Shown piece by piece: positions 1,168 through 27,945 of a DNA stretch of 41,489 bases. Source of the stretch: Thermodesulfobacterium hveragerdense DSM 12571. GTDB lineage: Bacteria; Desulfobacterota; Thermodesulfobacteria; Thermodesulfobacteriales; Thermodesulfobacteriaceae. The translations under genes and the position numbers were made by a program. How positions within the stretch are numbered: the stretch's first letter is position 1; every line of letters starts with the position of its first letter. A model generated the notes under the pieces. That model searched no databases and was not told the origin of the DNA. It saw only the letters and a program-made list of their open reading frames with translations. The stretch is taken from assembly GCF_000423845.1 (NCBI RefSeq), contig NZ_AUIT01000015.1, forward strand, positions 1-41,489. Reading direction: 5' to 3'.

Positions 1168-1260
1168 GGAGGCGTGAGGGGGCTGGTGCCTCTCCCGGGC
1201 TTCAAACCCGGTGCACCCCCAAAAGGGGTGGGTGGGTTCAATTCCCATACGCCTCCGCCA
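1168..1260 (+). tRNA. selC: tRNA-Sec (selenocysteine, anticodon UCA)
   Basis: The 93-nt gene folds with an 8-bp acceptor stem, GGAGGCGT (1168-1175) with ACGCCTCC (1249-1256). It then has a discriminator G and an encoded CCA. The anticodon stem CCGGG/CCCGG encloses the loop CTTCAAA with anticodon TCA at 1202-1204, which reads UGA. A long variable arm (CACCCC/GGGGTG) precedes the T arm. The long acceptor, long variable arm and UCA anticodon together are diagnostic of bacterial tRNA-Sec. SerRS charges it with serine, and SelA converts this to selenocysteine. The host should therefore have SelA, SelB, SelD and at least one selenoprotein. I found no selenoprotein in this window. Confidence 0.96.
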
Positions 1261-8536: not shown

Positions 8537-8639
8537 GCAATTTTGATGTTTAGAGATTTAAGAACCTCTGTTAGACAAAGATAAAAAGAGATAAAATGAT
8601 TTTAAGGTGGTGTTTTAGCCATAGGTATACCCCCCTCGA

Positions 8640-8905
8640 GGTTTTTAGAGGCTGGATAGGTCTTCCGGCTTCCGGATCAACCTACTTGCCGCACCTTCCC
8701 AGTGTCTTTCGGCACCAGTGGTCTGTCGGCTAAAGGCTGTTTATATCAAGCCTTTAGCCCAAGGAAGGAAGCCTCTTTTCGGGAAATCCCTACTTGGGAC
8801 CTCCTTCCCCAGAGGTCAGGTAGACCTCCAAGCGGCTTTCGTCCCCGGTCACGGCTGCGGGGCAGCGGGGGATTTTCACCCCTCTTCCCTTACATCCAGC
8901 CTGCT
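8640..8905 (-). promoter_or_regulatory. cobalamin (B12) riboswitch in the metE leader
   Basis: Read on the minus strand, the leader shows the standard cobalamin aptamer. First comes GGGTGAAAATCCCCCGCTGC with CCCCGCAGCCGTGACC, then GGGGACGAAAGCCGC, a long variable arm (about 8820-8740), then GCCACTGG-like ACCACTGG and ACACTGGGAAGG. Last is the B12-box region near 8660 (CCGGAAGACCTATCCAGCC). The element sits ~120 bases before the metE ATG, and the intervening leader (8524-8640) must hold the expression platform. That stretch contains two short palindromes (CCTCGAGG and GGTATACC), but I cannot assign terminator versus anti-terminator arms with confidence. B12 binding is expected to switch metE off. 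Confidence 0.93.
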
Positions 8906-8914
8906 TTCCCTAAC

Positions 8915-18830: not shown

Positions 18831-19772
18831 CTACTTAGAGATTTTTACCTCTCCTATCTGGTGTACGAGTCCGTCAGGGTTTTCAAACTGTTTTTCAAGT
18901 TTTAAAAGGTCTACCTTGTAGTCTTTTTCATCTAAGAGTTGGTCTAACTTTTTTAGGATATAAACCAGAGGGTTTTTGATTTTATTTTCTATATCAGGAA
19001 AGGCTTGAAGATAGATTTTGTTTTTTTCCACGGTGATTTTATAGGGTTCATAAAATATGAAAACTTTGGTGCCTATGGGTACGTTTTCGTATAAAAATTT
19101 GATGTGTTGGGGATACATCCTAATGCATCCATGGGTGCTTCTTCGACCGATGCTGTAGATTTTGTTGGTTCCGTGGATGGCATAAAGTCCTTTTGATAGA
19201 TAAAGGGCGTATTCTCCCATGGGGTTTTCAGGTCCAGGGGGGACTACATCAGGAAGGGCTGGGTCCTCAGCTTTGATAGAGGGAGGAGGATACCAGTAGG
19301 GTTTTTCTTTTTTTCCTTTGATAAAGTAGGTGTCTAAAGGAGGGAGTTTCCCTTCATCTCCAATACCAATGGGAGCTATAAACATAAAAGGGGGATTAAA
19401 AAAATAAAGTCTCATTTCTGGAAGGTTTACTATAATATAAGGGTCTATGGATTTGAGAACAAACTCTTTAGGGACTAAGACCTGATAAGGAATGATTATG
19501 GTCTGGTTGGTTTTAGGAAGCCAGGGGTCAACTTCGGGGTTGGCAAGCAATAAATGTTGATACCCTACTTCAAAGGTCACTGCCAAATCAACTAAGGTGT
19601 CACCTTCCTTTATGGTATAGGTCTGATTTTTAAGATAAATGTGTTTGTCAGGAACTATAGGAATAAACTGTAAGGGAGAGGTGGCAAAAGCTTGGAAAGA
19701 TGATAATAAGAGGTAAAATAGAAAAATTAACGTTGAGGGGAAGAGTTTATGCGTTTTCATAATGTTTTGCAA
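18831..19772 (-). CDS. LysM-YkuD L,D-transpeptidase
   Basis: The 313-residue exported enzyme has a signal peptide (~10-30). A LysM peptidoglycan-binding domain covers ~50-96 (YTIKEGDTLVDLAVTFEVGY). The YkuD catalytic domain covers ~112-235, with AIHGTN and STHGCIRM (catalytic Cys216), as in ErfK/YbiS/YcfS. Such enzymes make 3-3 peptidoglycan crosslinks or anchor Braun-type lipoprotein. The listed first codon is TTG at 19772, and an ATG at 19760 is equally possible. Neither has a strong ribosome site. Either way its 5' end overlaps the oppositely directed cysteine synthase fusion gene. Confidence 0.92.
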   Translation of the reverse strand: MQNIMKTHKLFPSTLIFLFYLLLSSFQAFATSPLQFIPIVPDKHIYLKNQTYTIKEGDTLVDLAVTFEVGYQHLLLANPEVDPWLPKTNQTIIIPYQVLVPKEFVLKSIDPYIIVNLPEMRLYFFNPPFMFIAPIGIGDEGKLPPLDTYFIKGKKEKPYWYPPPSIKAEDPALPDVVPPGPENPMGEYALYLSKGLYAIHGTNKIYSIGRRSTHGCIRMYPQHIKFLYENVPIGTKVFIFYEPYKITVEKNKIYLQAFPDIENKIKNPLVYILKKLDQLLDEKDYKVDLLKLEKQFENPDGLVHQIGEVKISK

Positions 19773-22070
19773 AAAATAGGTAATACCCCAATAATTAAAC
19801 TATCCAAGCTAAAAGTCAAGCCTTCGATAGAAATTTGGGGAAAAATCGAAAGTCAGAACCCAGGTGGGTCGATTAAGGATCGACCAGCGCTTTTTATGAT
19901 AGAAGATGCCGAGAAAAAAGGACTTCTTACTAAGGATAAAATAGTCATAGAGGCGTCAAGCGGAAACACAGGAATAGGCCTTTCTTTAGTCTGTGCGGTT
20001 AAGGGGTATAGATGTATGATTGCTATGTCTGAGTCAGCCTCTATAGAAAGAAGAAAAATCATGCAGGCCTTTGGGGCTCAGATCCTTCTTACTCCTGCAG
20101 AAAAAGGTACTGACGGTGCTATAGAGGCGGTATATGAACTTTTGAGGAAAGAGCCTGACAAATATTTTTGTCCAGACCAGTTTAACAACGAGGCTAACTG
20201 GAAAAGTCACTATTATACTACAGGCCCAGAGATCTGGAGAGACACTGAGGGTAGGGTCACTCATGTGGTATGTGGGCTTGGAACTACAGGAACAGCCATG
20301 GGAATAGCCCGATTCGCCAAAGATAACAATCTACCTTTTAAAGTAGTAGGGATTGAACCTTATCCAAAGCATAAGATCCAAGGACTAAAGAACATGAAAG
20401 AGTCTTATCCTCCGAGTATTTATAATAAAAAACTCCTTGAGAGGGTAATCAACGTAGAAGACGAAGAAGCCTTTTACTGGGCAAGATGGCTTGCTCGGGA
20501 AGAAGGAATCTTTGTCGGGATAAGTTCAGGGGCAGCTTTGGCAGGAGCTTTAAAACTGGCAGAAACTTTAGACCAAGGTTTGATAGTGGTTATTTTTCCA
20601 GATGGGGGAGAGCGTTATCTTTCTACCCCCCTTTGGTCTTTTGAGGTAAAAGACAAAAAAAGAGAAGAGACATGCCTTATTGTTTTTAATACCCTGTCTG
20701 AAAAAAGAGAACCCTTTTTTCCTCTAAATTCTTCTGAGATTAAGATATACACCTGCGGGCCTACTTTAAATCTGCGTCCTCACATCGGTCTTTATAGAAG
20801 GCTTATTACCGCAGACGTACTTAAAGAGTTTTTGAGGATTAAAGGTTATCAGGTGAGACATCTGATTAATCTTACTGATTTTGATGATAAAATCATAAAA
20901 AAAGCCTTAGAAGAAAAAATCCCCTTACAGGAGATAACCATAAAAGTAGAGGACGAGTTTTATCAAGATGTTGAGTTTTTAAACCTTAGCAAGGCAGACC
21001 TTTATCCCAAAGTAAGCCAACATCTTTCAGAAATGGCGGACCTGGCTTTAAAGGTGGTTGAGAAAGATAAAGCTTACGTAAAATATGGGAGTGTTTATTT
21101 TGATATTTCCAGGCTTGAGGATTACGGAAAACTTTCTAAGGTTGATCTTTCTCGTTTAAAACCTGGGGCTACCATAGACGTTGAAGAATATGATAAAGAA
21201 GAACCTTTTGACTTTGCCTTGCTTAAAAGAGTGCATATTCTTGAGTTAAAGGAGGGGTATTTTGTAGATACCTCTATCGGAAAGGTCAGACCTACCTGGC
21301 ATATCCACTGTGCTGCTTTGATACTTAAGTATTTAGGAGAGGAGATAGATTTCTTTACAAGTGGAATAGACCTTCTTTTCCCTCATCATGAAAACACCAG
21401 GGCGGTTTTAAAAGCATTGACTGGAAAGGAGGGTGCTCGTTACTGGCTTCATACCGGTATGGTGTTTTATCAGGGGAAAAAACTTTCTTCAGAAAATAGG
21501 ATAACCGTTGAAGACATTAAGGCAAAAGGGTTTAGCGGAAGAGAACTAAGGTTTTACTTTTTAAGAACTCACTACAGAAATCCCTTTAATTTTAGTTGGA
21601 AAGGACTTGAGGAAAGTGCAAAAATTTTACAAAAGATCGACCAGCATCTTGGTTTAATAGAGGCTTCAGCAAGAAATAACAAAGAAGATCCTTCTACTTG
21701 GTCTTTTTTAGAAAATTTTGGTAAAAGCTGGGAAAAGGCCTTAAAAGAGGATTTAAACACCCCTGTGGTTATTTCAGAGCTTATCTCTTTCTTAAAAAAA
21801 CTTTATCCTTATTTAAAGCAAGGGATTAGTGTCGAGTTTAAAGAAAAGGTTTTTGAAAATCTTCAAGCCCTTAACAGGGTGTTAAAGGTGTTAAGGTTTT
21901 CTAAAAAAGTCATGGACGAAGAAATACTCAGGCTGGTACGGTTAAGAGATGAAGCCAGAAAAAAAGAAAATTTTGAAGAAGCAGACCAGATAAGAAAAAA
22001 ATTGCTTGCTAAAGGATTTTGGGTGTTTGATTTCCCCTGGGGTACGGAGGTGGTGAGTTTAGAGGTATGA
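19749..22070 (+). CDS. cysteine synthase-cysteinyl-tRNA synthetase fusion protein
   Basis: Residues ~1-300 are a PLP-dependent O-acetylserine sulfhydrylase/CysK-CysM domain. They contain QKIGNTPIIKL, Lys43 in GGSIKDRPA as the PLP Schiff base, the ASSGNTGIGL substrate loop, GLGTTGTAMG phosphate loop and GISSGAAL. Residues ~308-773 are a full-length class I CysRS domain (~466 residues; E. coli 461). CGPT carries zinc Cys336, HIGL stands in the HIGH position, and LTDFDDKII follows. WHIHC carries Cys521, and FPHHEN carries the zinc His. The C-terminus EEADQIRKKLLAKGFW is typical. The KMSKS loop is changed to KKLSSENR near 577-584. No internal stop or frameshift separates the domains. GAGGGG precedes the ATG by 8 bases. 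It overlaps the next gene by 4 bases (ATGA). Confidence 0.93.
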   Translation: MRFHNVLQKIGNTPIIKLSKLKVKPSIEIWGKIESQNPGGSIKDRPALFMIEDAEKKGLLTKDKIVIEASSGNTGIGLSLVCAVKGYRCMIAMSESASIERRKIMQAFGAQILLTPAEKGTDGAIEAVYELLRKEPDKYFCPDQFNNEANWKSHYYTTGPEIWRDTEGRVTHVVCGLGTTGTAMGIARFAKDNNLPFKVVGIEPYPKHKIQGLKNMKESYPPSIYNKKLLERVINVEDEEAFYWARWLAREEGIFVGISSGAALAGALKLAETLDQGLIVVIFPDGGERYLSTPLWSFEVKDKKREETCLIVFNTLSEKREPFFPLNSSEIKIYTCGPTLNLRPHIGLYRRLITADVLKEFLRIKGYQVRHLINLTDFDDKIIKKALEEKIPLQEITIKVEDEFYQDVEFLNLSKADLYPKVSQHLSEMADLALKVVEKDKAYVKYGSVYFDISRLEDYGKLSKVDLSRLKPGATIDVEEYDKEEPFDFALLKRVHILELKEGYFVDTSIGKVRPTWHIHCAALILKYLGEEIDFFTSGIDLLFPHHENTRAVLKALTGKEGARYWLHTGMVFYQGKKLSSENRITVEDIKAKGFSGRELRFYFLRTHYRNPFNFSWKGLEESAKILQKIDQHLGLIEASARNNKEDPSTWSFLENFGKSWEKALKEDLNTPVVISELISFLKKLYPYLKQGISVEFKEKVFENLQALNRVLKVLRFSKKVMDEEILRLVRLRDEARKKENFEEADQIRKKLLAKGFWVFDFPWGTEVVSLEV

Positions 22071-22717
22071 CCAGAAAGATATCAGAGGTATTACAAGAGA
22101 TTTATCAGAGGCTTTTTGAGTTTTTTGGGCCTCAAAACTGGTGGCCTGCTGAGACCCCTTTTGAGGTTTGTGTAGGGGCTATTCTTACTCAGAACGCTGC
22201 CTGGAAAAACGTAGAAAAAGCCATTAGCAACTTAAAACAAAAGGGACTGCTTAGTCCTCCGGCCCTTTATCAGCTTCCTGTAGAGAAATTGGCTGAACTT
22301 ATCAAACCAAGCGGTTTTTACAACCTAAAAGCTAAAAGGCTTAAGTCCTTTGTAGAATTTTTGATGTTAAACTATCAAGGCAACCTTGATCTTATGTTTA
22401 AAAAGCCTATTTCGCACTTAAGGGCAGAGCTTTTAAATATAAAAGGTTTGGGCAAAGAGACGATAGACAGCATCCTTTTATATGGAGGCAACCTTCCTGT
22501 TTTCGTGGTTGACGCCTATACTTATAGAATCTTAAACCGACATTTTCTTGTGCCTGAAGAAACTACTTATGACGAAATCCAAGCCCTTTTTATGGAAAAT
22601 CTCCCTCCAGACCCGCAGCTTTTTAATGAATACCATGCTCTTTTAGTAGCCTGTGGAAAAAGCTTTTGCAAAAAAAACTCCCCTTTATGTGATCCCTGCC
22701 CTCTGAAAGGGCTTTAA
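22067..22717 (+). CDS. MagIII-like HhH-GPD DNA glycosylase
   Basis: The 216-residue protein is an endonuclease III-superfamily glycosylase. GAILTQNAAWKNVEKAI is the first conserved block. The helix-hairpin-helix reads LLNIKGLGKETIDSILLYGG, followed by FVVDAYTYRIL with the catalytic Asp. The lysine that makes Nth bifunctional (GxGxKTA) is Glu here (GLGKETI), as in the 3-methyladenine glycosylase MagIII group, so base removal without strand cleavage is expected. The C-terminus has four cysteines in a C-x4-C-x6-C-x2-C pattern, which may hold an iron-sulfur cluster, though spacing differs from Nth. Start overlaps the fusion gene stop by 4 bases. Confidence 0.85.
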   Translation: MTRKISEVLQEIYQRLFEFFGPQNWWPAETPFEVCVGAILTQNAAWKNVEKAISNLKQKGLLSPPALYQLPVEKLAELIKPSGFYNLKAKRLKSFVEFLMLNYQGNLDLMFKKPISHLRAELLNIKGLGKETIDSILLYGGNLPVFVVDAYTYRILNRHFLVPEETTYDEIQALFMENLPPDPQLFNEYHALLVACGKSFCKKNSPLCDPCPLKGL

Positions 22718-22729
22718 GTTGGGCACTCT

Positions 22730-23617
22730 ATGATAGGATTTATCTTTGCTCTCCTTGCCGGATTCTTGGTAGCTTTAAGCGATGCTTTAAATAAGAAATA
22801 TTTTTCTGATAAAGGGACTCCTTACATGGTGTTTGCAAGGACTGTAGGGAGTGTGCCTTTCCTTTTGCCTCTTTTTTTGTATCTTACCTTTTTTAAAGGT
22901 GTAGGGGTAGGATATTTTTCCCCTCAGTTTATGGTAGTAGTAGGTATTTTGCTTGGTTTAGAAATTTTAGCTACCTTTCTTTATATGAAAGGAATAAAGG
23001 TTTCTCCCCTTTCTGTTTCTGTGCCTTTTCTTTCTTTTACCCCTGTTTTTATCATCCTTACCGGATATTTTTTGCTTGGAGAAAAGGTTTCTTTTGAGGG
23101 TGGTATGGGGATTTTACTGGTGGTAGCTGGTAGTTATGTAATCAATCTTCCTTCTGTTAGGTTAGGGTGGTTAGAACCAATTAGAGCCATCAAAAAGGAA
23201 AAGGGGAGTTTTCTTTTAATACAAGTAGCCCTTATATATTCTATTACGTCTGTGCTTGGGAAAAAGGGCCTTCTTCTGACAGACCCCTTATGGTTTTCTT
23301 CTTTTTATTTTACCTTGCTTGGGATTTCGTCAGGACTTGTGGTTAAGGTTTTTTATCAAATAGAGGTAGGCTCTTTTTTAAAAACTCAAACCAAAGGCAT
23401 ATTATTGGTAGGCCTTACTCAGGCTCTCATGTGTTATTGTCATATGATATCCTTAAGTCAGCTTGAGACTGCCTATATGATAGCTCTTAAAAGAACAAGC
23501 ATCCTTTTTTCGGTGGTTTTAGGTTATTTCCTTTTTAAGGAGTCTTATTTTGGATTAAGGCTGATAGCTGCAGGTTTGATGTTAACAGGGGTTTCTCTGA
23601 TAATGTTTTTTAAGTAG
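22730..23617 (+). CDS. EamA/DMT-family transporter
   Basis: The 295-residue integral membrane protein has about ten hydrophobic segments in two repeats, the drug/metabolite transporter (EamA) plan. The C-terminal parts of the repeats read LLGEKVSFEGGMGILLVVAGSY and FLFKESYFGLRLIAAGLMLTGV. It probably exports or imports a small metabolite, and the substrate cannot be read from sequence. Position between a repair gene and cobO gives no firm clue. The start follows the glycosylase by 12 bases. Confidence 0.85.
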   Translation: MIGFIFALLAGFLVALSDALNKKYFSDKGTPYMVFARTVGSVPFLLPLFLYLTFFKGVGVGYFSPQFMVVVGILLGLEILATFLYMKGIKVSPLSVSVPFLSFTPVFIILTGYFLLGEKVSFEGGMGILLVVAGSYVINLPSVRLGWLEPIRAIKKEKGSFLLIQVALIYSITSVLGKKGLLLTDPLWFSSFYFTLLGISSGLVVKVFYQIEVGSFLKTQTKGILLVGLTQALMCYCHMISLSQLETAYMIALKRTSILFSVVLGYFLFKESYFGLRLIAAGLMLTGVSLIMFFK

Positions 23618-23625
23618 GAGGAAAA

Positions 23626-24141
23626 ATGTTTGCTCGAGGGTATGTTCAGGTCTATACAGGAGATGGAAAAGGGAAGACCACCGCGGCTGTGGGGTTAAGT
23701 ATAAGAGCTTTAGGGGCTGGATTGAAGGTGGCTTTTCTTCAGTTTTTTAAAGATGGAACCTCTTCTGAAGTAAAAATCCTCAAGACTTTCGATAATTTGT
23801 ATTATCAGCACTTTGGGGCGAAGGGATTTGTGTCAGAAGTAACTTCTGATCTAAAAGAAATTATCCAAAAAGGTTGGGAAGAAGCTAAAAGACTGGTATT
23901 TTCTAAAGAGTATAATATAATTGTTTTAGATGAGTTTACGTTTGCTCTTAATTGGGGTTTGGTTGAAGAAAAAGAGGTTTTGCAAGTCTTAAAGGATAAG
24001 CCAGAAGAGATTGAAATAGTCATTACTGGAAGAGATGCCCCAAGAAGTCTTATTGAATTTGCCCACCTGGTGACTGAAATGAAAAAGATTAAACATTACT
24101 ATGATCAAGGGATTAGGGATAGAATAGGGATAGAAAGATGA
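23626..24141 (+). CDS. cobO: cob(I)yrinic acid a,c-diamide adenosyltransferase
   Basis: The 171-residue enzyme attaches the 5'-deoxyadenosyl group of ATP to cobalt of corrinoids, making adenosylcobalamin precursors. It is of the CobO/CobA/BtuR type. The N-terminal P-loop GDGKGKTTAAVGL and the LQFFKDG and VLDEFTFALNWGLV blocks are typical. Length is slightly short of the usual ~190. AGGAGG precedes the ATG. Its stop overlaps the mqnC start by 4 bases. Together with the riboswitch on metE it shows an active B12 economy. Confidence 0.93.
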   Translation: MFARGYVQVYTGDGKGKTTAAVGLSIRALGAGLKVAFLQFFKDGTSSEVKILKTFDNLYYQHFGAKGFVSEVTSDLKEIIQKGWEEAKRLVFSKEYNIIVLDEFTFALNWGLVEEKEVLQVLKDKPEEIEIVITGRDAPRSLIEFAHLVTEMKKIKHYYDQGIRDRIGIER

Positions 24142-25199
24142 TAAAGGATGCGGTAGTAAGAAAGGTAATAGAAGGCATCAGACTAAATAAAGAAGAGGCT
24201 TTAGAACTTTTTAAATTCCCTCTTCAAGAAATTGGATGGTTAGCCCGAGAGGTTAGGTTTAGACTTAAACCTGAACGGGTGGTAACTTATGTGGTTGATC
24301 GAAATATTAACTACACTAATATATGTGTTTCAGGATGTAAGTTTTGTGCCTATTATAAGCCTCCAGGTTCAAAAGATGGGTATGTGCTTTCTTTTGAAGA
24401 GTTGGGAAAAAAGATAGAAGAGACTTTAAGCTTAGGTGGGTATCAAATTCTTTTGCAAGGAGGACTTCATCCTGACCTACCTTTTTCTTTTTATGAAGAC
24501 ATGCTGCGTTTTGTTAAAAGCAACTTTCCTCAAGTGCATGTTCATGGTTTTTCTCCTCCTGAGATAGTGTTTTTCAGTAAACGATTTGGGTTGTCTATAG
24601 AGGAGGTTTTGGAAAGGTTAATCAAAGCAGGTCTTGACTCTATTCCTGGAGGTGGGGCAGAGATTCTTTCAGATAGGGTAAGATGCCTTATTTCACCAAA
24701 CAAGGCTACCACAGAGGAATGGTTAAAGGTGATGGAGGTGGCTCATAACCTTGGACTTAAAACCACCGCTACCATGATGTTTGGACATATCGAGACCCAA
24801 GAGGAAATTATAGACCATCTTCTGAAGATACGATCCCTTCAAGACAAAACAGGAGGTTTTACTGCGTTTATTCCCTGGACTTTTCAGCCTAAAAACACAG
24901 GGTTGAATCACCTGATAAAAGCAGGGTCTGCCTATTATTTAAAAGTGTTAGCTGTATCTCGTATAGTGCTTGATAACGTTAAAAACATTCAGGTTTCTTG
25001 GGTTACTCAAGGTCCTCATATCGCTCAAATTGCTCTTGAATTTGGGGGTAATGATTTTGGTTCTACCATGATAGAGGAAAACGTAGTAGCTGCTGCCGGG
25101 GTTTCTCATAGGATGAGTGAAGAGGAGATCAGACATCATATCTTATCTGCAGGTTATATTCCTAAAAGAAGAAGGATGGATTATACCCTTTTAGAATAA
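24138..25199 (+). CDS. mqnC: cyclic dehypoxanthinyl futalosine synthase (radical SAM)
   Basis: MqnC is a radical-SAM enzyme of the futalosine menaquinone pathway that converts dehypoxanthine futalosine to the cyclic form. The 353-residue sequence has CVSGCKFCAYY (CxxxCxxC iron-sulfur site) and GGYQILLQGGLHPDLPF. SIPGGGAEIL and TTATMMFGHIET follow, and the C-terminus is SAGYIPKRRRMDY, all typical. The paralogue MqnE is similar but longer and lacks this ending. The next genes complete three more steps of the route. Confidence 0.93.
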   Translation: MIKDAVVRKVIEGIRLNKEEALELFKFPLQEIGWLAREVRFRLKPERVVTYVVDRNINYTNICVSGCKFCAYYKPPGSKDGYVLSFEELGKKIEETLSLGGYQILLQGGLHPDLPFSFYEDMLRFVKSNFPQVHVHGFSPPEIVFFSKRFGLSIEEVLERLIKAGLDSIPGGGAEILSDRVRCLISPNKATTEEWLKVMEVAHNLGLKTTATMMFGHIETQEEIIDHLLKIRSLQDKTGGFTAFIPWTFQPKNTGLNHLIKAGSAYYLKVLAVSRIVLDNVKNIQVSWVTQGPHIAQIALEFGGNDFGSTMIEENVVAAAGVSHRMSEEEIRHHILSAGYIPKRRRMDYTLLE

Positions 25200-25201
25200 G
25201 C

Positions 25202-26428
25202 ATGAAAGAAATTCAAGTTCTTCCTTATCATCATTTTTTACTTCGCGCTAAATGGGTAGTCCCTGTAGTCTTGCCTCCGATTTTAGACGGAGCCGTAGAG
25301 ATTAGAGAGGGGAAGATTGTTAGGGTTGGGGAGTTTTCAACCCTGTCTAAAGAAACTGTAGGAGCTAAGTTGATAGATTTTGAAGAAGCGGTGATCCTTC
25401 CCTGTTTAACCAACCTTCATACCCATCTTGAACTCACCAGTTTTAGGTTTAGGATCAAACCTTCGGAAGATTTTATAACCTGGGTAAGACAGGTAATTAA
25501 ACTAAAAGAAGAAACTTCTCCGATAGAGTTAAGGGAGAGCGTAAAATTTGGAATTTTAGAGTTATGGAAAGAGGGAATAGGTCTTATTGGAGAGGTTACT
25601 AATTCAGGGCTTACCTTAGACCTTCTCAAAGGAAGTTCTTTGTATGGGTATGTGTTTCGAGAAATGATAAGTTTTAAAGGAGGGGTTAAGCTGCAACCTC
25701 TTGATAAGCAAGATTTGGACTCAAGGTTTAAGTTAACCTATTCAGCCCACGCACCTTATACCGTTTCTCCCTTACTTCTTCAGGCAATAAAAGCCTACAC
25801 CAGAAAAAGAAATCAGGTTTTTTGTATCCATTGTGCAGAGTCTAAAGAAGAGGTAGAGTTTTTTAAGACTGGCGACGGCCCAATAAAACACTTGTTAGAA
25901 GAAAGAAATCAATGGAACGAAAGCTTTTCTCCTCCTGGGATAAGCCCGATAAAATACTTAGCTAATTTAAATCTTCTTGATTACAAAACTTTGTTAGTCC
26001 ATGTTGTCCAATTAGACGAAGAAGATTTAGAGGTTCTTAAAACCTATAAACCTAAGGTTTGTGTTTGCCCAAGAAGTAATGTTTTTACAGGGGTAGGCCT
26101 TCCCAACTTGCCTTTATTATTAAAGACAGGTCTTGAAGTAGGGATAGGAACAGATAGTTTAGCCAGTAACACCTCTTTATCTATCTGGGAAGAGTTGAAG
26201 ACCCTTTATTCAGCCTTTCCTGAAGTGTCTCCAGAAATCCTTATTCAGATGGCTACCTTAACCGGAGCCAAAATTTTGGGATATGAAAACCTTGGCGCAA
26301 TTGCCCCTGGATATTTACCTAACCTTCTTGTGGTCGAGGTTTTAGATTACCTGATAGATGACCCTCAGGAGACGATGCTATCTCTTATCAACTCTAACAA
26401 GGAGGTTAAGTATAGGATTTATGGATAA
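25202..26428 (+). CDS. aminodeoxyfutalosine deaminase (amidohydrolase)
   Basis: The 408-residue metal-dependent amidohydrolase has NLHTHLELT (HxH). SAHAPYTVSP and FCIHCAESKEEVEF follow, with LLVHVVQLDEED and GIGTDSLASN carrying the catalytic Asp. The family also contains cytosine, S-adenosylhomocysteine and chlorohydrolase-type deaminases. Placement between mqnC and mqnA makes 6-amino-6-deoxyfutalosine deaminase (the MqnX step, producing futalosine) the best call, but from sequence alone the substrate is not certain. It starts 2 bases after mqnC and overlaps mqnA by 8 bases. Confidence 0.85.
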   Translation: MKEIQVLPYHHFLLRAKWVVPVVLPPILDGAVEIREGKIVRVGEFSTLSKETVGAKLIDFEEAVILPCLTNLHTHLELTSFRFRIKPSEDFITWVRQVIKLKEETSPIELRESVKFGILELWKEGIGLIGEVTNSGLTLDLLKGSSLYGYVFREMISFKGGVKLQPLDKQDLDSRFKLTYSAHAPYTVSPLLLQAIKAYTRKRNQVFCIHCAESKEEVEFFKTGDGPIKHLLEERNQWNESFSPPGISPIKYLANLNLLDYKTLLVHVVQLDEEDLEVLKTYKPKVCVCPRSNVFTGVGLPNLPLLLKTGLEVGIGTDSLASNTSLSIWEELKTLYSAFPEVSPEILIQMATLTGAKILGYENLGAIAPGYLPNLLVVEVLDYLIDDPQETMLSLINSNKEVKYRIYG

Positions 26429-27251
26429 ACTAAAAATAGGTATTCCTCTTTACATAAACACGCTCCCCTTACTTTTTTACCTTCCTAAGGAAAATAAGAG
26501 AATAGAACTTATGTTAGAGGTTCCTAAGAAGCTTAATCAACTTATTAGACAGAATGTTTTGTGTGCAAGTCTAAGTTCAAGTGTAGTCTTTGCTAAAAAT
26601 CCTCAAGAATTCTGCATTTTACCAGACCTATCGATAAGTGCCGTAGGAGAGGTAAAAAGTGTAGTGCTTTATCATAAAGAGGACCTTCAAGCCCTTGACG
26701 GACAACTCGTAGGGATAACCCCAGAGACCGAAAGTTCTTTTTGGCTGTTAAGAGTTTTGCTTGAAGAGTTTATAGGTGTAAAACCTAAGTATGTAGAACT
26801 TATTAAAAATTGGGGAGCTCTTTCAGACCCAGAGAGAGAGGAATTAAAGGGCTATTTAGCTATAGGGGATGAAGCTTTAATCCTTCAGCACCAGAAAGAT
26901 GAGAGGTATAAGATCACTGACCTTGCAGAACTATGGTTAAAACATACGCATTTTCCTTTTGTTTTTGCTTTGTTTATTCTAAAAAAGGAGTTTGTATCCT
27001 TTAAACAAGAACTGGCTTATTTTTGCTTAAATCTGTATTCTGCCAGGGCTAAAGCTTTTTCAAACTTAAAAGAGGTGGTAACCCATTCCCATCTTCATCT
27101 TCCTAAGGATTTCGTATACAACTATCTAACTCATTTAGAGTACGATTTTTCAGGGTTAAAACAAAGGGCTTATCTATATTTTTGCGAGATTTTATACAAG
27201 AAAAAACTTATATCTTTTATGCCTGAACTTAACTTTTTTAACTTAGGATAA
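26421..27251 (+). CDS. mqnA: chorismate dehydratase, menaquinone pathway
   Basis: MqnA converts chorismate to 3-enolpyruvylbenzoate, the first step of the futalosine route. The ~276-residue periplasmic-binding-protein-like fold begins KIGIPLYINTLPL and contains ASLSSSVVF, ISAVGEVKSVVLY, ITPETESSF and LAIGDEAL, all family signatures. The ATG at 26421 is chosen over an upstream in-frame start, because it gives the conserved N-terminus and a tight 8-base overlap with the deaminase gene. Confidence 0.92.
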   Translation: MDKLKIGIPLYINTLPLLFYLPKENKRIELMLEVPKKLNQLIRQNVLCASLSSSVVFAKNPQEFCILPDLSISAVGEVKSVVLYHKEDLQALDGQLVGITPETESSFWLLRVLLEEFIGVKPKYVELIKNWGALSDPEREELKGYLAIGDEALILQHQKDERYKITDLAELWLKHTHFPFVFALFILKKEFVSFKQELAYFCLNLYSARAKAFSNLKEVVTHSHLHLPKDFVYNYLTHLEYDFSGLKQRAYLYFCEILYKKKLISFMPELNFFNLG

Positions 27252-27264
27252 GGTTTTAAACGTT

Positions 27265-27945
27265 ATGAAGGTTGAAAAAAACTTTGTCAAAAACAAGTTT
27301 GACCGGATAGTTCGAAGGTATGATCTGGTAAACCTTATAGGAAGTTTAGGTCAAGACAGATTATGGAGACGTAAGGTTGCTTTACTGTTAGCCGAAGCCT
27401 TTCCTCTGCTTGACCTTTGTTGTGGACCTTTTACACTAACCTTAGAGGTCTATCGAAAGAGTAATTTAGCTAAGACCTTTGCCTTAGACTTTAGCTTTGA
27501 GATGCTTGCCTTCGGTAAACCTCGAATAAAAGATACCTTTATCTATCCTGTTTGTGGAGACGCAGAAGAATTGCCTTTCAAGAACAACCATTTTGGAGGG
27601 GTTAGCATAGCCTTCGGGTTAAGAAACCTTCCCAACAAAAATAAAGCTATAAAAGAATTTTTTAGGGTTTTAAAGCCAGGAGGAAAGCTAATCATCCTTG
27701 AATTTTCTTGGCCTAAAAATTTTTTGGTGCAAAGATTTTATGATTTTTACCTAAGTTATTATATGCCCTTTTTAGGAGGGGCCTTAACCGGAGACGAAGA
27801 GGCTTACAGGTATTTAGCCGATTCTATAAAGGCCTTCCCGCCTCCTGAAGAAATAAAGAAAATGCTTTTAAACTCAGGTTTTTCAAAAGTTACCTATAGT
27901 TCTTTAACCTTTGGCATAGTCACCTTATATCAGGCGGTTAAGTAA
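27265..27945 (+). CDS. menG: demethylmenaquinone methyltransferase (UbiE/MenG)
   Basis: The 226-residue SAM-dependent methyltransferase catalyses the last step of menaquinone synthesis. Class I methyltransferase motifs are present. LLDLCCGPFTLTLEV is an unusual motif I (UbiE normally has LDxAxGTGD), and DAEELPFKNNHFGGVSIAFGLRN is the UbiE signature. RVLKPGGKLIILEFS and the late GGALTGDEEAYRYL are family hallmarks. Location at the end of the mqn genes supports menaquinone over ubiquinone. It converges with the chemotaxis gene with 2 bases between stops. Confidence 0.9.
   Translation: MKVEKNFVKNKFDRIVRRYDLVNLIGSLGQDRLWRRKVALLLAEAFPLLDLCCGPFTLTLEVYRKSNLAKTFALDFSFEMLAFGKPRIKDTFIYPVCGDAEELPFKNNHFGGVSIAFGLRNLPNKNKAIKEFFRVLKPGGKLIILEFSWPKNFLVQRFYDFYLSYYMPFLGGALTGDEEAYRYLADSIKAFPPPEEIKKMLLNSGFSKVTYSSLTFGIVTLYQAVK

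Follow-up and report, generated by a model that had tools for sequence, protein, structure and literature searches.

A cysteine synthase fused to a degenerate cysteinyl-tRNA synthetase in Thermodesulfobacterium hveragerdense: a candidate tRNA-reading biosynthetic enzyme

The window analysed here is the whole stretch of 41,489 nucleotides of contig NZ_AUIT01000015.1 from the thermophilic sulfate reducer T. hveragerdense DSM 12571. At positions 19749-22070 on the forward strand it contains a single open frame of 773 codons which joins a CysK/CysM cysteine synthase to a full-length domain resembling cysteinyl-tRNA synthetase (CysRS). Pfam assigns PALP to residues 7-285 (E 1e-73) and tRNA-synt_1e to residues 325-623 (E 5e-79) of the product. 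The NCBIfam cysS model TIGR00435 matches residues 311-768 over model positions 2-463 of 466 with 354.5 bits, above its cut-off of 340 bits. Motifs read in the protein are GGSIKDR with Lys43, HIGL, PTWHIHCAA, FPHHENTR and GKKLSSENR. A previous sequence-only reading had described one uninterrupted frame with both domains, an intact PLP lysine at position 43 and the altered motifs HIGL, KKLSSENR, WHIHC and HHENT, all of which the translation and the domain searches bear out. The features of the locus are as follows.

19749..22070 (+): fused gene, cysteine synthase (CysK/CysM-like) plus CysRS-like pseudo-synthetase, 773 aa (open reading frame, Pfam, NCBIfam, homologues)
19767..20636 (+): PLP cysteine-synthase half, CysM-type, residues 7-296 (TIGR01136 above cut-off; Foldseek TMt 0.94 to CysM 2bhs)
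19875..19877 (+): Lys43, the PLP lysine (108/108 in the fusion family)
20388..20390 (+): Lys214 in QGLKNMKES, predicted contact to the phosphate of O-phosphoserine (108/108; aligned with CysM R210 and Mtb CysM 220)
20637..20675 (+): linker, residues 297-309, low confidence (pLDDT <50 at 297-304; variable among homologues)
20676..22067 (+): CysRS-like half, residues 310-773 (Pfam, NCBIfam, Foldseek)
20781..20792 (+): degenerate HIGH motif, HIGL, residues 345-348 (alignment)
20796..20801 (+): R350-R351, of which R351 is a fusion-specific invariant adjoining the HIGH site (alignment)
21228..21230 (+): R494 in LLKR, a fusion-specific invariant (alignment)
21396..21398 (+): Thr550 in place of the fourth zinc ligand, E238 of E. 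coli (alignment with E. coli CysRS)
21480..21494 (+): degenerate KMSKS motif, KLSSE, residues 578-582 (alignment)
21918..22052 (+): C-terminal anticodon-reading domain with R737, D746, R749 and D761, corresponding to E. coli R427, D436, R439 and D451 (alignment)

The AF2 model of the fusion protein is confident inside the domains (mean pLDDT 90), and the arrangement of the domains is uncertain (pTM 0.62). With Foldseek, the CysRS-like half was matched to the CysRS of the tRNA complex 1u0b with a TMt of 0.81 over 481 alignment columns. Downstream of the fusion, same-strand genes extend over 22067-27945 (+). The first encodes an HhH-GPD repair protein whose start overlaps the stop of the fusion, and further genes encode an EamA-type transporter, CobO-like and CofH/MqnC-like proteins, an amidohydrolase, a VitK2_biosynth protein and a UbiE-like protein. 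In E. coli, an EamA-family protein exports cysteine.

A search of the T. hveragerdense genome for a canonical cysS revealed a second, separate CysRS with HLGH, KMSKS, WHIEC and HHENE. The fused copy is therefore a paralogue and not, as had been considered, a divergent sole CysRS; the other option offered, a paralogue with another job, is the one borne out. A separate CysRS-family match was present in all 32 fusion genomes examined, in one of them (G040) split over two frames. In that genome canonical cysS lies in two overlapping frames (L174), and the fusion has a decayed CysRS half. In another genome (G058) a CysRS-like protein of 729 aa (L172, 1845-4031, minus strand) continues into a C-terminal region that looks like a glycosyltransferase.

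A sample of 297 genomes from the phylum yielded full-length fusions in 114 and truncated ones in three more, with 39-99% identity. Since over 100 other genomes, including several assembled as a single contig, have the same full-length frame, the fusion is neither a chance event nor an assembly artefact, and the possibility that the halves are always separate in close homologues is likewise dismissed. Among the best 80 of 159 matches considered in a contig scan reaching beyond the phylum, the nearest named relative was Thermodesulfobacterium thermophilum (99%). The frame is broken near query residue 594 in one member (L173, G014), and the fusion of G066 seems cut at contig ends. G066 excepted, no second CysRS paralogue was evident in 24 genomes with unfused CysM relatives. 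In an Acetoanaerobium (Clostridia) record, cysK-, cysE- and cysS-like genes are unfused neighbours. No described CysK-CysRS fusion was found in the limited literature collection searched, and a description elsewhere is possible.

Phylogenetically, the CysRS halves form one clade (support 100/100) that excludes the E. coli enzyme and the canonical CysRS encoded in the fusion genomes, and the CysK halves group together (SH-aLRT 92). Three members (L169-L171 of kinship family f42), which we label Desulfovibrio-type, have a very long branch in the CysRS-half tree, and in the CysK-half tree they fall within the rest, which argues for one fusion with later decay of the synthetase. The CysRS-like half is a descendant of CysRS by duplication and a single ancient fusion. 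Purifying selection acts on both halves (dN/dS 0.03-0.04 and 0.09).

To compare the synthetase halves, residues of 111 fusions and of 30 canonical CysRS encoded in these genomes were scored in E. coli CysRS numbering. Following the E. coli structures, we take the zinc ligands to be C28, C209, H234 and E238, and the anticodon-reading residues to be those at the R427, W432, D436 and D451 positions. The complete catalytic set was present in none of the fusions and in all canonical enzymes. Both histidines of HIGH were retained in one fusion, both lysines of KMSKS in three, and K266 plus K/R269 in 27; GG225-226 was absent from all 111, as opposed to its presence in 29 of the 30 canonical CysRS. 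The anticodon set (R/K427, W/F/Y432, D436, D451), in contrast, was kept in 110 of 111 fusions and in 30 of 30 canonical enzymes. W205 and H206 remained in 108 fusions, all four zinc ligands in 74. In the T. hveragerdense protein, aligned with E. coli CysRS, C336, C521 and H546 remain while Thr550 occupies the position of E238, so that, contrary to the earlier statement, not all zinc ligands are kept. Of the features of a CysRS enzyme, this fusion thus lacks HIGH and KMSKS as well as a full set of four zinc ligands, and has the anticodon residues.

The Desulfovibrio-type proteins lack C28, C209, H206, E238, T68, HIGH and KMSKS, and hence three of the four zinc ligands. They retain R427, D436, R439 and D451 together with the fusion-specific invariants P338, R351, T475, Y481, R494, L500, K501 and G503. 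At the other extreme, some fusions look nearly competent, such as L097 (HLGH/KPSKS) and L028 (KMSRS and four zinc ligands). Loss of aminoacylation by the synthetase half is well supported by this census, and, judged by its residues, the half is no longer able to make cysteinyl-adenylate.

Three activities suggested previously found no support. Direct hand-over of cysteine to tRNA by the protein's own synthetase conflicts with the absence of the catalytic set from every fusion. A persulfide function, as in CPERS-type CysRS (cysteine persulfide synthase), is tied to the lysines of KIIK and KMSKS, which are not conserved across the fusions: KIIK is present in the T. hveragerdense protein and not conserved in the family, and KMSKS is lost. 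A cysteine ligase of the MshC kind was rejected because the MshC model scores 137 bits compared with 354 for CysRS and its match ends at residue 681, beyond which the fusion retains the anticodon-reading domain.

Among known systems, CysRS (TIGR00435; E. coli 1LI5/1U0B) shares with the fusion the full-length fold with anticodon domain and the anticodon residues. The fusion differs in the loss of HIGH, KMSKS and the ATP-site glycines, a variable zinc site, new invariants and the attached synthase. HisZ is likewise derived from an aminoacyl-tRNA synthetase, devoid of charging chemistry and tied to biosynthesis of the same amino acid (PMC9437257). However, HisZ is a separate subunit of class II origin, whereas the fused half is class I, covalently attached and equipped with anticodon-reading residues. 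MshC is a CysRS paralogue like the fused half, but the match to its model is much weaker and stops before the anticodon domain. The CysRS* of some Desulfobacterales, which pairs with SelC*, is another noncanonical CysRS from the same phylum (PMC9437257); it lacks an anticodon domain and charges SelC*, whereas the fusion has that domain and a synthase.

As in a cysteine synthase, the N-terminal half has the PALP fold, and neither Lys43 nor the SGNTG phosphate loop varies within the family; its function as such a synthase is well supported. Of the 32 fusion genomes examined, 15 have no CysK/CysM besides the fusion, which supports its beta-replacement activity indirectly. All of these 15 lack CysE, and the 15 fusion genomes with an additional typical CysK all have it. 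Two further genomes show other combinations: CysE-like genes without an extra CysK (G142, 9% contaminated), and a second CysK-like gene (335 bits) without CysE (G128). SerA was found in 15 of 16 genomes searched, all of which lack CysE. SepRS and SepCysS were looked for and found absent, which ruled out the route that depends on them.

The invariant Lys214 aligns with R210 of E. coli/Salmonella CysM and, ungapped, with residue 220 of Mtb CysM. R210 of CysM has been noted for O-phosphoserine selection (PMC3805590), and the role falls to Lys188 in the O-phosphoserine-using CysK of T. kodakarensis, opposite Arg297 of A. pernix (PMC5120207). A basic residue at the phosphate position may not suffice for an O-phosphoserine enzyme: C. 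jejuni CysM, if it carries one there, is a counter-example, as O-phosphoserine was not among its substrates (PMC9855970). GLKN also occurs in standalone CysM-like relatives from CysE-bearing genomes. Standalone CysM-like relatives (L144-L166) carry a short Cys-containing C-terminal tail (CxxCPP, or longer). Two features expected of an O-phosphoserine sulfhydrylase are found, namely the basic residue and, in the 15 fusion-only genomes, independence of CysE; O-phosphoserine is the most likely substrate. The O-phosphoserine sulfhydrylases Mtb CysM and A. pernix and T. kodakarensis CysK resemble this half in PLP fold, catalytic lysine, basic residue at the phosphate position and CysM-length loop. 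To our knowledge none of the three carries a CysRS domain, as the fusion does.

Because the fold and the anticodon-reading residues are kept, the C-terminal half should bind tRNA-Cys. The parts for loading an amino acid are lost while those for recognising tRNA are kept, and the protein therefore probably tunes cysteine production to cysteine-tRNA. Our preferred reading, which we regard as having an even chance of being right, is a main cysteine synthase working on O-phosphoserine and sulfide that is regulated by a tRNA-Cys-binding pseudo-synthetase. The N-terminal half would make free cysteine by PLP beta-replacement from sulfide and the O-phosphoserine of the SerA/SerC pathway, without CysE. 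The C-terminal half would bind tRNA-Cys, and perhaps cysteine where the zinc pocket survives. As an on-board gauge, it could turn the synthase on in response to uncharged tRNA-Cys, or off in response to cysteine or charged tRNA, and so stand in for the feedback that CysE gives elsewhere. O-phosphoserine as the substrate, binding of tRNA, regulation of the synthase and the sign of this regulation are what we infer. Two precedents are documented: feedback on HisG runs through HisZ, a HisRS paralogue that carries out no adenylation (PMC9437257, PMC9734150), and in CysRS a communication path leads from the anticodon site to the active site (PMC9976931). Like HisZ, the fusion combines the absence of a charging signature with a canonical synthetase elsewhere. 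Among the gene neighbours of the fusions, no conserved one pointing to regulation and no functional operon was seen; the families of putative DciA-like, Tmk, SurE and GlnA proteins and of one unknown protein recur in subsets only.

More tentatively, the synthase could read tRNA-Cys directly, which would serve either to gauge charging or to provide a platform for making cysteine. If true, this would be a third way of tying cysteine synthesis to translation, besides CysE-CysK and SepRS-SepCysS. Cysteine synthesis without CysE misses the usual feedback point, and the fusion family is a possible solution: a retired tRNA synthetase welded to a biosynthetic enzyme and retained for tRNA reading.

Several alternatives were weighed. 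A strict HisZ analogue, in which cysteine bound to the CysRS half controls the synthase by feedback and tRNA plays no part, is unlikely: it would fit the retention of W205/H206 in 108 of 111 fusions and the common zinc ligands amid decay of the ATP site, but such a sensor alone would not need anticodon residues, and the Desulfovibrio-type proteins kept these while losing the pocket (T68, H206, C28, C209, E238). A purely structural or localising domain, which would keep the synthase attached to tRNA-Cys or close to canonical CysRS, or only set its oligomeric state, without any gauge, appears quite unlikely. New invariants unrelated to CysRS catalysis, the kept anticodon residues and the lack of an operon partner are consistent with it and nothing speaks directly against it, yet the preservation of anticodon-reading side chains is hard to account for by simple scaffolding. 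The main idea of the earlier reading, an active bifunctional enzyme that makes cysteine, charges tRNA-Cys despite its altered motifs and channels cysteine between the sites, is improbable. The fold and most of the cysteine pocket remain (W205, H206; the zinc set in 74/111), K266 plus K/R269 occurs in 27/111 and the TIGR00435 cut-off is passed; against this stand the lack of a full catalytic set in all fusions, the loss of GG225-226 in 111/111, the three missing zinc ligands of the Desulfovibrio-type members and canonical CysRS in the same genomes. Finally, tRNA-dependent cysteine synthesis, in which the pseudo-synthetase would hold tRNA-Cys and the PLP half would convert the amino acid that this tRNA carries, would suit a tRNA-reading module joined to a predicted phosphoserine-using enzyme, but is highly improbable given that canonical CysRS is present and that SepRS and SepCysS are absent, which leaves no known source of Sep-tRNA-Cys.

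For annotation, TIGR00435 passes the fusion as a cysteine--tRNA ligase, and the catalytic set occurs in no member examined. Elsewhere in the window, an SRP RNA (1051-1148) and a tRNA-Sec gene (1168-1260, plus strand) were detected, and the organism probably makes selenoproteins. A cobalamin riboswitch lies at 8638-8914 on the minus strand.
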